A stretch of 52,834 nucleotides of DNA from Methanothermococcus sp. SCGC AD-155-C09 (lineage in GTDB: Archaea > AGJL01 > Methanococci > Methanococcales > Methanococcaceae), in NCBI GenBank assembly GCA_019561555.1, contig JAHEQB010000032.1, positions 1 to 52,834 of the forward strand, in the 5' to 3' direction. Under the pieces are notes generated by a model. That model was given only the letters and a program-made list of their open reading frames with translations, was not told the DNA's origin and did no database searches. The position numbers and the translations under genes were made by a program. Each line of letters begins with the position of its first letter. Position 1 is the first letter of the stretch. This document shows, piece after piece, positions 6,088 to 17,124 of the stretch.

Positions 6088-6888
6088 ATGAAAATATTTG
6101 AAAATATTAAGAATATAGGTAAAGTTATTAGATTGGAGAGAGTTTTTAATAAAAATTCAGGGAGAACAGTAATCATCCCAATGGATCATGGAGTTTCATC
6201 AGGGCCAGTAAGGGGATTGGAAAATATGAGGGAGGCCATTAATGCTGTGGCAGATGGTGGAGCAAATGCTGTATTGGTACATAAGGGAATAGTAAGGCAT
6301 GGACATAGAGGATATGGAAAGGATATTGGTTTAATAATACACTTATCTGCTGGAACATCCCTTTCCCAGGATCCAAATAAGAAGGTCATAGTAACTTCAG
6401 TTGAGGAGGCCATAAGGATGGGAGCAGATGCTGTATCTATCCATGTAAATGTTGGGGCAGATAGTGATGACGAAATGTATAAGGATTTAGGTAGTATCTC
6501 TGAGGTTTGTGAGTACTGGGGAATACCATTAATAGCCATGATGTATCCAAGGGGCGAGAAAATAGAGGATGAGAAGGATCCAGAGGTTGTGGCCCATGCT
6601 GCAAGACTTGGTGCCGAGTTGGGAGCCGATATAATAAAAACAAACTACACTGGAGACATAGATTCCTTTAGGGAGGTTGTAAAGGGATGCCCTGCTCCAA
6701 TTATAATTGCAGGGGGACCGGAGTTCTTACAGATGGTTAAAGACGCCATAGAGGCTGGGGCTTTGGGAGTTGCCACTGGAAGAAATGTGTTCCAGCATAG
6801 GGATGTTTCAGGTATTACAAGGGCAATATCCATGGTTGTCCATGAGAATGGAGATGTTGAAGAGGCCTTAAAGTTAATAAAAAAGTAG
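6088..6888 (+). CDS. 2-amino-3,7-dideoxy-D-threo-hept-6-ulosonate synthase (archaeal class I aldolase family)
   Basis: This belongs to the archaeal DhnA-type class I aldolase family. The M. jannaschii relative makes ADH, the first intermediate of the archaeal route to 3-dehydroquinate and aromatic amino acids, by transaldolase chemistry. Motifs seen are [41 protein letters not shown] and the Schiff-base lysine in [10 protein letters not shown]. The protein is 266 residues against about 273 expected. The loop after AGGP runs straight into EFLQM, where relatives have GGPKTxTDxEFLQ, so about six residues are missing there. The start ATG follows GGGTG. A plain fructose-bisphosphate aldolase role is less likely but possible. 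Confidence 0.85.
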
Positions 6889-6890
6889 GT

Positions 6891-7216
6891 TATAGTCATA
6901 AATATAATTACTTATCATAATAAAATTCTGTATTCTAAAATGATCTAATAAAAAAATAATAATTATCAAAAAGCCATTAAAAAATATAAAAAAATTATTA
7001 TTTCTAAAATAAACATTATAAAATCTATAAAAAATAAATAAAAATAAAAAGATAATTAATATAAAATATAAAATAAATATTAATGCCTAAAAAGGAGTAA
7101 AAACATAAAAAAGTAAAATCCTATAATATCCTATTAATACTCTGCACTAGGAGAGCAAGTAAAATCCTTATAGGATAAAAAGGATTATACTTTAAGGGGT
7201 TATGTATTTTTGACTA
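6891..7216 (+). repeat. Dispersed hairpin element, copy 2
   Basis: It begins TATAGTCATAAATATAATT at 6891, two bases after the stop codon of the ADH synthase gene, and ends near 7216 in TTTTTGACTA. The core at 7090-7200 has the AAAAACATAAAAAAGTA lead-in and a degenerate CTGCACTAGGAGAG apex, and closes with GGTTATG. The position directly after a stop codon could let it act as a transcript end (inference). Confidence 0.6.
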
Positions 7217-7224
7217 AATTTAAA

Positions 7225-7552
7225 ATTCATAAACTTACTTATAAAAATAAAAATCCTTAATTAAAAATCTAATAAAAAAATTATTAAAAAATTAATTAAC
7301 ATTGGAAATAAAAAATTAAAAAATTATATTAAAAAAAATAAAAACATAAAAAGTAAAAATCCCATATTATTCTCCCTAATACCCCCAAACACTGGAGAAT
7401 AGATGGAACCCTTTAAAGGATTTATTAAAAGCCCATAATTAACCTAAGTTAGATAATCTTAAAGTATTTCTTTATTAATATACTATCCTCTTTGTTCTCT
7501 TTATTTTACAACATTAGATTTAAGTTTAAATATTATATTTTTTACCATAAAA
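7225..7552 (+). repeat. Dispersed hairpin element, copy 3
   Basis: This copy is in tandem with copy 2. The core at 7340-7425 reads AAAAACATAAAAAGTAAAAATCCC, then CAAACACTGGAGAA and CCCTTTAAAGG. The right arm ends in AAGTTTAAATATTATA near 7521-7540. It reaches to within about 20 bp of the tpiA ribosome binding site, so it must overlap or abut the tpiA promoter. Confidence 0.55.
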
Positions 7553-7564
7553 AAATAATAAGAT

Positions 7565-7570
7565 GGTGAT
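7565..7570 (+). promoter_or_regulatory. tpiA ribosome binding site (GGTGAT)
   Basis: GGTGAT followed by ATT ATA mirrors the arrangement GTGAT-ATT-ATG before gmd at 12028. It decides the tpiA start: the codon in the ATG position is ATA at 7574. Confidence 0.65.
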
Positions 7571-7573
7571 ATT

Positions 7574-8239
7574 ATAAAACCTATAATAATTATAAACTAT
7601 AAAACCTACAAAGAAAGTATAGGTAAGAAAGGATTAGAGATAGCAAAGATCTCTGAAAAAATTTCTAAGGAGAATGGTATAACCATAGGGGTATGCCCAC
7701 AGTTCTTAGATTTGAGAATGATAAGGGAAAATGTAGATATTCCTGTGTATGCCCAGCACTTTGATGCCATATCTCCTGGGAGCAATACTGGAAGTATTCT
7801 TGTAGATAGTCTTCTTGATTGTGGTTTAAAGGGAAGTTTATTAAATCATTCTGAAAAAAGGATGATATTGGCAGATTTGGAGAGGGCCATTGAACTTGCA
7901 AAGAAAAATAATTTAGAAGCAATAGTTTGTACAAATAATATAGGGGTTTCCAAAGCCGTATCTGCTATGGATCCTAATATGTTGGCTATAGAACCCCCTG
8001 AATTAATAGGATCAGGTATTCCAGTGTCCAAGGCCAATCCAGAGATTGTAGAGGGGACTGTAAGGGAAGTTAGAAAAATAAATAAAAATGTAATAATACT
8101 ATGTGGTGCAGGTATCTCTAAAGGAGAGGATGTTGAAGCAGCACTTGAATTAGGAACAGAGGGAGTATTGTTAGCCTCAGGGGTTGTTAAATCCAAGAAT
8201 ATAGAGGAATCCATAAGGGAGTTAATTAGATTTATTTAG
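7574..8239 (+). CDS. tpiA: Triosephosphate isomerase, archaeal short form
   Basis: This enzyme interconverts dihydroxyacetone phosphate and glyceraldehyde 3-phosphate in the cytoplasm. The reading frame is open upstream of the first ATG (7712). The upstream part encodes IIINYKTYKES, which holds the catalytic Asn and Lys of the NYK motif, so the gene must start near 7574. The catalytic His (NHSEKR) and Glu (EPPELIGSG) follow, then the phosphate loop CGAGISKGED and GVLLASGVV. From 7574 the protein is 221 residues, as expected for archaeal TpiA. No ATG, GTG or TTG lies in frame at the right place; the codon placed by the ribosome binding site is ATA (or ATT at 7571). Confidence 0.88.
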   Translation: MKPIIIINYKTYKESIGKKGLEIAKISEKISKENGITIGVCPQFLDLRMIRENVDIPVYAQHFDAISPGSNTGSILVDSLLDCGLKGSLLNHSEKRMILADLERAIELAKKNNLEAIVCTNNIGVSKAVSAMDPNMLAIEPPELIGSGIPVSKANPEIVEGTVREVRKINKNVIILCGAGISKGEDVEAALELGTEGVLLASGVVKSKNIEESIRELIRFI

Positions 8240-8244
8240 ATAAT

Positions 8245-8570
8245 TATAGTAGGGATATAATACCTTAAACTATATTTATAATATAAAAAATGACAAAATA
8301 ATAAAATAATTCAAATTTTAAGATAAAAGGAAATAAAAATATTAAAATAAAATAATAATTTAAAAAAAATAAAAAAATAAAATTAAATATCTAAAAAAAT
8401 AATTAAATCCTAAGATATGGAGAAAAATTAAATATTTAAAGAAATAAAGAAAAGCAAATACTTAAGAAGTAGAAATTCCTACCACTATCCTCCTTTCTCC
8501 CATATCCCTAAGCACTGAAGTGAGAGGAAGTCCTTTAAGTATTAAATTAGAACAAATTCTTAAAGAGAGT
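8245..8570 (+). repeat. Dispersed hairpin element, copy 4
   Basis: A decayed IS630-like end (TATAGTAGGGATATAATACC) starts at 8245, six bases after the tpiA stop codon. The core at 8455-8550 forms a good imperfect stem: AAATACTTAAGAAG pairs with CTTTAAGTATT, and CTCCTTTCTC with GAGAGGAAG. The apex is ATCCCTAAGCACTG. Confidence 0.6.
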
Positions 8571-8669
8571 GTTAAACATTAATAAAAAATCTTAATTAAG
8601 AAATGTAAAAAATAAAATAAATAATTATTAAAAGAATAAAAAATAATTTAAAAAAATATAAAATATAAA

Positions 8670-8780
8670 AAAATAAAATGAGAGTAAAAAATAATAACAT
8701 CAAAAGATTTTTTTCCTTTATATTTTTGAGCATGAAGGATAGAGGGAATTTTTTTAAGGAGTAAAATTATTATCCTTTAT
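8670..8780 (+). repeat. Fragment of the dispersed hairpin element, copy 5
   Basis: This is a strongly decayed core, recognised by an AAAATAATAACATC lead-in, TTTTGAGCATGAAGG at the apex position and TTTTTTAAGGAG at the closing arm. No ends are seen. It lies about 130 bp before the next gene. Confidence 0.35.
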
Positions 8781-8906
8781 TATTTTTATTCATTTATTAT
8801 TCTTTATATTCATAATCTTTTTTTATTATTGATTTTGATTTTAAAGTATCTAACGAGTATGATTATAAATACATTTAAAATACACTTAAAAATAGGGAAA
8901 TTAACT

Positions 8907-11960: not shown

Positions 11961-12027
11961 CTAAATAACAATATTTAATTCATGAATAATTACTGTTTAA
12001 TATTTTAAGTAAATTGAGAGTGATATT

Positions 12028-13053
12028 ATGAAAAAAGCATTAATAACTGGAATAACAGGACAGGATGGTTACTACCTAACAAAATTACTATTGGAAAAAG
12101 GATATGAGATTCATGGTATTGTTAGAAGAAATAGTCAGAATTCATTGGGTAATTTAGAATATTTGCCTGAGAAAGATAGAGAGAATATAACTATCCATTG
12201 GGGTGATATTACAGATAATCTATTTATAGACAACGTTATGAAATCTGTACAACCTGATGAAGTATATCATCTGGCTGCCCAAAGTTTTGTTGGATTTTCC
12301 TTTGAGAACCCTAAATTTACATACGATGTTAATATAGGGGGAACTTTGAATATGGTAAATGCTTTAAAGGAGCACTCTCCATCTTCAAGATTCTACTTTG
12401 CTGCAACATCTGAACTCTATGGAAAGGTTCAGGAGATTCCTCAGAAGGAAACTACTCCTTTCTATCCAAGGAGCCCCTATGGAGTCTCTAAGTTAGCAGG
12501 ATTTTGGACAGTTAAGAACTACAGAGAGAGTTATGATCTATTTATGAGCAATGGAATACTCTTTAATCATGAGTCTCCTATGAGGGGCCCTGAATTTGTA
12601 ACAAGAAAGATAACCCTTGCAGTTGCGAGAATATATCACAATTTACAGGAGTCCTTAGAATTAGGGAATTTAAGTGCTAAAAGGGATTGGGGATTTGCAG
12701 GGGATTACGTCTATGGTATGTGGAAGATGTTGCAACATAATAAACCAGATGACTTTGTCCTTGCAACAAATGAAACTCATACAGTTAGAGAGTTTGTTGA
12801 AAGGGCATTTAAAGTAGTTGGAATAGATATAGAGTGGGAAGGAGAAGGAGTAAATGAAATAGGTAGGGATGCCAATAGTGACAAGATACTGGTAAAGGTA
12901 AATCCTAAGTACTTTAGACCCTGTGAAGTGGATTTATTGATAGGAGATTATTCAAAGGCTAAAAGGGAATTAGGATGGGAACCAAAAACTAAATTTAAAG
13001 ATTTAATTAAAATTATGGTTGAGGAAGATTTAAAAAGGGTAATTAATGAATGA
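12028..13053 (+). CDS. gmd: GDP-mannose 4,6-dehydratase
   Basis: This enzyme converts GDP-D-mannose to GDP-4-keto-6-deoxy-D-mannose, the branch point to GDP-fucose, GDP-rhamnose or GDP-perosamine. Seen are the Rossmann motif GITGQDGYYL, HLAAQSFVGFSFENP, the active-site TSELYGK and the YxxxK pair in SPYGVSKLAG, and the family-specific FNHESPMRGPEFVTRK and KRDWGFAGDYV. Length 341 is normal. It heads a run of same-strand glycan genes reaching 19338. No GDP-4-keto-6-deoxymannose reductase, epimerase or aminotransferase partner lies in the window; the GDP-mannose source, ManC, is at 33389. Confidence 0.93.
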   Translation: MKKALITGITGQDGYYLTKLLLEKGYEIHGIVRRNSQNSLGNLEYLPEKDRENITIHWGDITDNLFIDNVMKSVQPDEVYHLAAQSFVGFSFENPKFTYDVNIGGTLNMVNALKEHSPSSRFYFAATSELYGKVQEIPQKETTPFYPRSPYGVSKLAGFWTVKNYRESYDLFMSNGILFNHESPMRGPEFVTRKITLAVARIYHNLQESLELGNLSAKRDWGFAGDYVYGMWKMLQHNKPDDFVLATNETHTVREFVERAFKVVGIDIEWEGEGVNEIGRDANSDKILVKVNPKYFRPCEVDLLIGDYSKAKRELGWEPKTKFKDLIKIMVEEDLKRVINE

Positions 13054-13776: not shown

Positions 13777-14844
13777 ATGATGAAGATATTGTATATATGT
13801 GGAAGGGAACCCACTTATGTAAGGAACTCAGTAATATTAAAAGGCTTAAAATTTCAGAAAGATGTTGAATTATTAGAATACACTAGTAATGCAAAAAACT
13901 ATTTCAAAAGATATATGTCAGTATTTAAAAAGTACCTACTAAATTATAATGGCAATTATGATATTATGTATGTTGGATTTCTTGGGCAGCCTATAGTTCC
14001 AGTAGTGAGGTCATTATCTAATAAACCCATAGTTTTTGATGCATTTATTTCAGTATATGATACATTGTGCTACGATAGGAAAGTATTTAAGCCAAATTCC
14101 ATTATGGGAAAATTATTATATCATTTAGATAGAGTTTCCTGTAATTTATCAGACATTACACTATTAGATACAGATGCCCATATAACCTATTTTGTAGATA
14201 CTTTTGGACTTGATAAAAATAAGTTTAAAAGAGTATTTGTTGGTGCTGACGATAGTATATTTTATCCAAGAGACATTGATAGAGATAATGACAAATTTAC
14301 AGTTTTTTATTATGGAACCTATTTACCTCTACAAGGTATAGAATTTATTATAAAATCAGCGAAAATTTTAGAGAATTATAATGATATAATATTTAAAATA
14401 GTGGGAAGAGGTCCCGAATATAAAAAAATAATTAATTTAGTTAAAAAATTAAATATTAAAAATATAGAGTTTATAGAGTGGATACCTTATGAAAAGTTAC
14501 CTTTAGAAATCGCCAGGGCAGATATTTGCTTAGGTGGGCACTTTTCAGATATTGATAAAGGGAAAAGAGTAATAGCAGGAAAAACTTTTCAATTTATCGC
14601 TATGAAAAAGCCTGTTATTGTTGGAAACAATCCAGCAAATAGGGAATTACTCACAGATAGAAAAAATGCCCTATTTGTTGAACATGCCAATTCAGAAGAC
14701 TTAGCAGAGAAAATCTTAGAGTTAAAAGATAATGAAAAATTAAAGGAAGAAATTGCTAAAGGTGGGTATGGAGTATTCAAAGAAAGATGCACCCCAGAGG
14801 TTATTGGAAAAGAACTTTTAAATATAATGAAAAAGGTTATTTAA
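13777..14844 (+). CDS. Glycosyltransferase, GT4-like
   Basis: This 355-residue GT-B fold enzyme probably adds one sugar during surface glycan assembly. The N-terminal domain starts MKILYICGREPTY. The C-terminal domain has FYYGTYLPLQGIEFIIKSA, FKIVGRGPEYKKI and the donor-binding end GGHFSDIDKGKRVIAGKTFQFIA, followed by KPVIVGN. The acidic E(x7)E motif of classic GT4 enzymes is replaced (KTFQFIAMKKP), so donor chemistry may differ. ATG ATG at 13777 follows GGGATTATT. It is 12 bp after the GT2 gene and ends 11 bp before the next gene. Confidence 0.8.
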   Translation: MMKILYICGREPTYVRNSVILKGLKFQKDVELLEYTSNAKNYFKRYMSVFKKYLLNYNGNYDIMYVGFLGQPIVPVVRSLSNKPIVFDAFISVYDTLCYDRKVFKPNSIMGKLLYHLDRVSCNLSDITLLDTDAHITYFVDTFGLDKNKFKRVFVGADDSIFYPRDIDRDNDKFTVFYYGTYLPLQGIEFIIKSAKILENYNDIIFKIVGRGPEYKKIINLVKKLNIKNIEFIEWIPYEKLPLEIARADICLGGHFSDIDKGKRVIAGKTFQFIAMKKPVIVGNNPANRELLTDRKNALFVEHANSEDLAEKILELKDNEKLKEEIAKGGYGVFKERCTPEVIGKELLNIMKKVI

Positions 14845-14855
14845 GTGATACTGAT

Positions 14856-15995
14856 ATGAAGGTAGGAATTATATCCGATAGATTAAATAGAACATTGACG
14901 GGAGTGGGAACTTATGTCTATAATCTGATAAAGGAGTTGTCAAAAGATAATAATGATAATTTATTTTTAATTAATTATACTGAAAATAATATATTTAATT
15001 TAAATAGTGTAATTATAGATAATCCCTTTAATTTTTTACCAAAGAAATATGCTTATTACTCTTGGCATATTTATTTAAATTATTATTTAAAAAATAAGAA
15101 GTTAGATTTAGATATCATACACAGTCCTGAAAATGTAACATTATTTATTAAGTTAAAAGAAGGTCAAAAGAAAGTTATTACAGTTCATGATATAATGGCC
15201 TTTCGTTTTCCAGATATATCAGATATTATTACACGATATCGCTATAAATTTCTCCTACCAAAAACCCTTAGAACAGCAGATAAAATAATATCAGATTCCT
15301 ACAGTACAAAAAAGGATATTATAAAATACTTTAAAATACCTGAAGATAATGTAAAAGTTATTCACCTTGGAGTTGATGAAGATTACAAACCTCTATCTAA
15401 AGAGGAGATAAACAATATCAAAAGGAAACACAATATAAACTATCCCTTTATTTTATACACTGGTGGTTTAGCACCAAACAAGAATGTTGAAAGATTAATT
15501 TACGCCTTCTATAAATTAAAGAAACAGTTGCCTAAATATAAATTAATAATCACTGGCATAAAAAGATATAAATACAAATCAATATTTGAAACCATAGATA
15601 AACTAAATCTCCAAAAAGATGTTATATTCACAGGATACGTACCTGATGAGGATCTACCCGGTCTATACAATGCTGCAGATCTCTTTGTTTATCCCTCTAT
15701 ATATGAGGGTTTTGGACTTCCACCATTAGAGGCCATGGCCTGTGGTACTCCAGTGATAACTTCCAATACTTCCTCTTTGCCAGAAGTTGTTGGTAATGCT
15801 GGGATAATTATTGATCCCTACGATGTGGATAGGCTAAGTAGGGCCATGTATGAGGTTTTATCTAACGATGGATTAAGGGAAGAATTAAGGAAAAAAGGAT
15901 TAAAGAGAGCTAAGTTATTTAACTGGAGAAAAACTGCTGAGGAAACTCTGAAAGTTTATAGGGAAATATATAATATAAATAATAGGAGAGAGTAA
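14856..15995 (+). CDS. Glycosyltransferase family 4, paralogue 1
   Basis: This is a GT4 retaining glycosyltransferase, mannosyl- or rhamnosyl-transferase-like. Seen are the acceptor-domain glycine loop [27 protein letters not shown], the GT-B hinge [38 protein letters not shown], and the donor-phosphate E(x7)E motif in [19 protein letters not shown]. The true start is ATG 14856 ([10 protein letters not shown]), after GTGAT; the frame is open further upstream over the previous gene's end but that is not used. Length 379. It is a close paralogue of the next gene, sharing nearly identical C-terminal halves and exact DNA tracts. Confidence 0.9.
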
Positions 15996-15996
15996 A

Positions 15997-17124
15997 ATGA
16001 AAATTGGGATAATATCTGAGCCGTTAAATCAACCTTTAACGGGAGTGGGAAATTACCTTTATAATTTAATTAAAGAATTATTAAATAAGAATTTATGTAA
16101 TAATATTGTGTTAATAAATTATAAAAACTGTAATATTTTTCCAACTGTGAATAAGACCCTCATAAACAATCCTCTTAAAAAAATATCAAAAACCTATTTA
16201 TGGTACGCATATATATTTGCACTCAATAGCATAAGAGGATATTTTAATGGACTAGATATTATCCATAATCCTTATCAAGCCCCAACTTTTTTTGATCTAA
16301 AGGGGCAAAAATATATAATTACAGTTCATGATTTAATACAGATTTTATTTCCCAAAGAAGTTAAACCTCTAGTACATTTAGTACAAAAAACTATGCTTCC
16401 AAGGACCATTAGAACAGCAGATAAAATAATATCAGTATCACATAATACAAAGAAAGATGTTATAAAATACTTTAAAATACCTGAAGACAAAATAGAAGTT
16501 ATATACAATGGAGTTAATGAAGAATATAAACCTCTACCGGATAATGAGATCGAAAAAATTAGGCAAAAATATAATTTAGAATATCCCTTTATATTATACG
16601 TTGGAGGATTAGCCCCAAATAAAAACATTCCTACCCTCATTAAAGCATTTTATAAGCTTAAAAAACAGAGATTACTTCATAAATTAGTTATTATAGGAGC
16701 CAAACGTTTAAAGTACAACTCAATATTTGAAACCATAGATAAACTAAATCTCCAAAAAGATGTTATATTCACAGGATATGTTCCAGAGGAAGACCTCCCT
16801 GCCTTATACAACGCTGCAGATCTCTTTGTTTATCCCTCTATATATGAAGGTTTTGGACTACCACCTTTAGAGGCCATGGCCTGTGGAATACCTGTAATAA
16901 CCTCTAATTCATCCTCACTACCTGAGGTAGTTGGTAATGCAGGGATAATGGTTGATCCCTACGATGTGGATGGGCTAAGTAGGGCCATGTATGAGGTTTT
17001 AACTAACGATGGATTAAGGGAGGAACTTAGAAAGAGAGGTCTGGAAAGGGCTAAATTATTTACTTGGAAGAAGTGTGCTGAAGAACATTTAAAGGTTTAT
17101 GAAGAAGTTTATAAGATGAAGTGA
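15997..17124 (+). CDS. Glycosyltransferase family 4, paralogue 2
   Basis: This is a tandem duplicate of the preceding GT4 enzyme (375 residues). It keeps all family motifs: [40 protein letters not shown] and [19 protein letters not shown]. The N-terminal acceptor domains of the pair differ much more than the C-terminal donor domains, so the two probably use the same sugar nucleotide on different acceptors (inference). A 59-bp tract at 16720-16778 is identical to 15579-15637, and a 35-bp tract around 16810-16845 is also shared. The ATG lies two bases after the stop of paralogue 1, with GGAGAG as ribosome binding site. Confidence 0.9.

Follow-up and report, generated by a model that had tools for sequence, protein, structure and literature searches.

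The tpiA gene of Methanothermococcus sp. SCGC AD-155-C09 raises the question of where translation of a core glycolytic enzyme begins when its reading frame offers no standard start codon ahead of the N-Y-K motif of triosephosphate isomerase (TIM). The gene lies in contig JAHEQB010000032.1, the whole 52,834-nucleotide stretch of which forms the window analysed here. The initial annotation had proposed that tpiA starts at ATA or ATT or, failing that, that the sequence contains an error.

The tpiA frame and its 5′ end

The tpiA frame (7562–8239, plus strand) is open from 7562 up to the TAG at 8237–8239, with the following features.

7559–7561, plus strand: in-frame stop TAA, the upstream bound of the tpiA frame
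7563–7565, plus strand: out-of-frame ATG overlapping the Shine-Dalgarno (SD) sequence (ATG GTG ATA TTA TAA); not conserved and not the tpiA start
7565–7570, plus strand: SD sequence GGTGAT, complementary to the 16S rRNA 3′ end of two relatives; GGTG[A/G]T in 16/16 aligned tpiA genes
7574–7576, plus strand: ATA, the putative tpiA start codon; ATA, ATC or ATT in relatives, ATG in g4
7574–8239, plus strand: tpiA coding sequence, archaeal triosephosphate isomerase, 221 aa, the first residue predicted to be Met from AUA
7595–7603, plus strand: N-Y-K motif of TIM strand 1, whose translation is required; N and K invariant in 16/16 relatives
7712–7720, plus strand: first canonical in-frame candidates, TTG 7712 and ATG 7718, giving a TIM without the first 47 of 245 profile positions

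That no standard start precedes N-Y-K, as initially reported, was confirmed for the window copy, in which neither ATG, GTG, TTG nor CTG occurs in frame between the upstream stop and the motif and the 5′ codons read GAT GGT GAT ATT ATA AAA CCT ATA ATA ATT ATA AAC TAT AAA. The first in-frame ATG had been placed at 7712, a position that is in fact TTG with the first ATG at 7718–7720, but both codons lie approximately 40 codons beyond N-Y-K and a start at either one removes the motif, as had been argued. The GGTGAT element is a perfect six-base SD sequence followed by three nucleotides (ATT) and then ATA 7574, which places this codon at the commonest spacing of ATG starts (GGTGA plus 4 nt; 503/711 tallied in the relative G011). 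The likeness that had been drawn to the arrangement before gmd also stood, with GTGATATTATG occurring once in the window, at 12020–12030, before the frame 12013–13050 that had been annotated as gmd.

Read from 7574, the product is a full-length archaeal TIM, matching profile PRK04302 over residues 2–219 (profile positions 3–220 of 223; E 5.7e-94; 314 bits against a cutoff of 132), PF00121 over residues 3–214 (E 9.1e-44) and the Methanocaldococcus jannaschii TIM structure (PDB 2h6r; E 1.9e-101, alignment 4–221). The match includes strand 1 with N-Y-K, and alignment to 2h6r locates the catalytic His (N-H-S-E) and Glu (E-P-P-E) in NHSEKRM and IEPPELIG. As such the protein is an ordinary full-length member of the family typified by the M. 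jannaschii enzyme and PRK04302, the start codon alone being unusual, whereas in M. jannaschii-type tpiA genes an ATG two codons further in serves as the start, replaced by TTG in one relative.

Upstream, window 6889–7562 comprises approximately 670 bp of very AT-rich intergenic DNA that separates the ADTH synthase gene from tpiA and contains weak direct repeats of 43 and 64 nt (70–79% identity). A special upstream RNA element for tpiA was rejected, no Rfam match being found at 6800–8900. The gap between the two genes, approximately 690 bp in the window, closes in two relatives (G010 and G006) in which they are adjacent, with the stop codon 12 nt before ATH. Because of the gap in the window, translational coupling to the ADTH synthase gene was rejected as what permits an AUH (AUA, AUU or AUC) start. 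An unusually unstructured start region was likewise unsupported, with a mean fold of −5.6 against −3.9 kcal/mol (229 SD-ATG starts).

The tpiA start codon across Methanococcales

The gene was found in 20 of 22 Methanococcaceae genomes, the nearest relatives of the window being records named Methanothermococcus okinawensis, with Methanocaldococcus in the sister family. The comparison of start codons in relatives that had been proposed as a check was run and showed that 16 of the 20 copies have ATH where the window has ATA 7574, within the pattern GGTG[A/G]T-ANN-ATH (7 ATC, 7 ATT and 2 ATA) and with A at −3 in all 16. After ATH the residues are conserved (K in 15/16, P in 15/16, then hydrophobic residues and I-N-[YF]-K, giving K-P-x-[IV]-[IV]-I-N-[YF]-K), while codon −1 and the sequence 5′ of the SD vary across the same 16 aligned copies, indicating that the protein starts at ATH. 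In 15 of the 16 there is no ATG, GTG, TTG or CTG from the upstream stop to N-Y-K, the exception being an incidental GTG at codon −3 in G013, such that an ATH at SD-optimal spacing and conserved in relatives stands where no usable canonical start exists. The non-standard start at ATA 7574 is thus strongly supported.

The other four copies comprise both g4 genomes (one of 1,854,197 bp), which carry ATG at the homologous codon (GGTGAAATGATGAAACC), and G003 and G009, where the site is shifted (GGTGATTATTATT...) and contains runs of ATT and the SD is overlapped by an in-frame GTG or ATG, so that these 2/20 are ambiguous and a canonical start is possible in them. In the readable Methanocaldococcaceae tpiA genes the start is ATG, except for one TTG, and in nearly all of them it lies two codons further in. 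The third base changed among A, C and T approximately five to six times by eye on the tpiA tree, with ATG only in g4. Since G makes up 9% of four-fold sites, the absence of G would arise by chance approximately 60% of the time on this tree, which by itself is weak statistical evidence for selection against G, with too few changes to prove it. The pattern is best explained by an AUH codon that was ancestral or near-ancestral in Methanococcaceae and would have moved among AUA, AUC and AUU, with AUG regained only in g4.

The same comparison bears on four other accounts of the site. A frameshift that would carry ribosomes starting at the upstream ATG 7563 (ATGGTGATATTATAA) over to the tpiA frame has a negligible probability, for while this ATG overlaps the SD here and in a few other genomes it is missing in most relatives with an intact gene (e.g., TTAGGTGATAACATC and AAAGGTGATAACATC), lies too near its own SD and is accompanied by no visible slippery heptamer. 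Hardly any weight attaches either to a short TIM initiated at TTG 7712 or ATG 7718, the first canonical codons in frame, as such a protein would lack N-Y-K and strand 1, invariant in the family, together with 47 of 245 profile positions. Among relatives, the nearest canonical codon downstream ranges from codon +5 to +67. A sequencing or assembly error masking a true ATG could be entertained for a window taken from a 115-contig genome, with ATA a single transition away from ATG, but ATA, ATC or ATT stands at the site in another 15 members of the family, among them apparently complete genomes in one contig (1,662,525 and 1,720,048 bp), and the nearest relative (L031; 93% protein identity, different assembly) also has ATA. 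That relatives assembled independently, several as a single contig, share a non-AUG site whose third base is A, C or T refutes the error that had been suspected.

Initiation at another nearby AUH codon is very unlikely, if less so than these three. ATT 7571 and ATA 7583 and 7586 are all present in the window copy, yet codon −1 varies (ACT/AAC/ATT/AGT/AAT), as do codons +4 and +5 (TTT, AAT, GTT, ATA and others), whereas the 7574 position is ATH in 16/16 aligned copies and ATG in g4. The ATT at 7571, which had been offered as an alternative to ATA, also abuts GGTGAT and is an unlikely start.

AUH starts in other genes and their possible role

A second gene with the same property encodes the PRK03839 P-loop kinase, for which pattern searches identified a start of the form GGTG-N5-ATA/ATT in 21/21 Methanococcaceae read (14 ATA and 7 ATT), the start being ATG in 13/13 Methanocaldococcaceae read. 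The SD is slightly shifted in G003, G011, G014 and G016, and a canonical codon at codon 2 or 3 makes the case less clean in six genomes (ATG in G017 and G021; TTG in G000, G002, G006 and G010). G018, G019, G020 and G009 have no canonical codon at these positions, and in G018 the first one lies beyond the P loop.

The frequency of such starts was assessed by an SD-aware scan of G011 in full (a contig of 1,662,525 bp) and of the initial 1.109 Mb (64%) of G018 (1,720,048 bp). It took 5′ open segments in which 10 or more further codons passed before any canonical start, and read the codon exactly 4 nt after GGTG[A/G]. This codon was ATH in 5/8 segments in G011 and 5/5 in partial G018, where 18% and 13% were expected (p = 0.006 and 3e-5, binomial test), or 10/13 pooled against an expected fraction of approximately 0.15. 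The three exceptions were on inspection unconvincing as genes or starts, and other near-cognate codons (CTG, ACG, AAG and AGG) did not occur at the SD-placed position in the regions scanned. Canonical starts in the same strict SD class numbered 442 in G011 and 205 in partial G018. ATH at 10/13 SD-optimal positions, together with its conservation in tpiA and the kinase, argues that AUH is a rare but genuine start class in these genomes, probably accounting for approximately 1–2% of SD-led genes.

A one-sided, SD-aware test for protein conserved ahead of the first canonical start returned ATH starts in both genomes for the PRK03839 kinase, an EamA-like protein and a substrate-binding protein. 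It also returned them in G011 for a RimK-family ligase and for proteins resembling dCTP deaminase and PK_C, and in G018 for a HAD-like protein and Cas1. The ATH start is less certain for the EamA-like protein and the kinase of G011, in which a canonical codon overlaps the SD, and the ATT of the dCTP-deaminase-like gene is local to G011, several relatives having ATG (loose pattern). The Cas1 gene (PF01867, E 1e-74), minus-strand frame B_-_836560 of G018:C1 (loci L131–L186), has an apparent ATA start after GGAGGGGATACT (IKLIINTPGTYISKSG). Within the window no ATH-start gene besides tpiA was found among frames with orthologues.

The best explanation of the tpiA site, to which we assign a probability of about 0.85 on comparative sequence evidence, is that the gene is translated by normal initiator Met-tRNA from the SD-placed AUA at 7574, most likely as a weak start. 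The strong SD GGUGAU, three nucleotides upstream, would position the ribosome on this codon, and the initiator tRNA (anticodon CAU) would pair at codon positions 1 and 2 with a mismatch at the third. An altered anticodon was rejected, since the initiator tRNA identified in G011 carries the usual CAT, and the 16S 3′ end is GGATCACCTCCT in both G011 and G018, making standard Met-tRNAi with a third-base mismatch the simplest mechanism. The gene would belong to a small AUH-started set in which the kinase appears to be AUH-started in every member read, and a deliberately weak start may serve to keep the tpiA translation rate low.

The main rival to a selected weak start is near-neutral drift, in which a strong SD renders AUN almost as good as AUG and start codons wander with no role in low expression, and this we regard as unlikely though far from negligible. 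In its favour, the dCTP-deaminase-like, HAD-like, PK_C-like and RimK-like genes have ATH in one relative and ATG or TTG in another, and GTG and TTG starts are also frequent. Against this, AUG is favoured generally, the strict SD class of G011 containing 358 ATG and 5 ATH, and tpiA and the kinase have kept ATH in nearly the whole family although one third-base change restores ATG.

In bacteria, infC has an AUU start under IF3 discrimination. The tpiA start resembles such AUH starts in being SD-led, conserved within a lineage and mismatched to the initiator tRNA at the third position, but differs in using archaeal initiation (aIF1, no IF3) and in the alternation of all three AUH codons across species. 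Nor would infC-type autoregulation be expected, the product being a metabolic enzyme, TIM, for which regulation at its own start is not anticipated. AUU, AUC and AUA are bacterial starts discriminated by IF3 (PMC4611024), and archaeal aIF1 disfavours non-canonical starts (PMC6237735; PMC8211752). By analogy, initiation at AUH here should be weak and its level dependent on aIF1, perhaps as bacterial AUU starts are sensitive to IF3. The same aIF1 studies, from which aIF1 emerges as a plausible candidate for setting the level of AUH initiation, describe rejection of such codons in vitro, whereas the genomes considered here retain them at fixed genes.

A tentative extension, for which the odds fall somewhat short of even, is that recognition of the third position is relaxed in Methanococcaceae and that AUA, AUU and AUC form a regular, selected class for fixed genes (tpiA, the PRK03839 kinase and others), providing translational tuning across the lineage. 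If true, the AUH class would be an archaeal lineage-wide tuning device overlooked by gene finders. In genetically tractable methanogens, gene finders limited to ATG, GTG and TTG will truncate or miss AUH proteins, one of them a core metabolic enzyme. The pairing of a conserved AUH set in one family of archaea with homologues that start at AUG in its sister family also offers a natural experiment on third-base reading by aIF1, the initiator tRNA and the SD, and on whether weak starts are retained for metabolic tuning. Searches of open-access literature turned up neither AUH starts in Methanococcus nor a metabolic gene of archaea with a conserved AUH start, which is not proof of absence, and individual public annotations with AUA, AUU or AUC starts may exist since a comparative study admitted such annotated starts in its prokaryote gene set (PMC5397173).

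Other frames in these genomes

A two-sided scan for protein conservation ahead of the first canonical start was dominated by rRNA and antisense frames. Once these had been filtered out it returned selenocysteine (TGA) genes alone, used as positive controls, and the score of tpiA in this test was 196. The UGA genes conserved upstream of any start in G011:C2 and G018:C1 were by eye SelD-, VhuD-, HdrA-, hydrogenase- and formate-dehydrogenase-like, with examples in G011 at 431607–432594 and 837881–845312. At approximately 935354–935876 (plus strand) of G011:C2 (L094–L095) a coiled-coil protein is out of frame with its ATG, and the break lies within a nine-A run, so that slippage, a pseudogene or an indel in the homopolymer would account for it; the G018 orthologue is in one frame. 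In the window, a tandem duplication is suggested by the neighbouring long frames 14760–15992 and 15979–17121, whose best match in G011 is one and the same.
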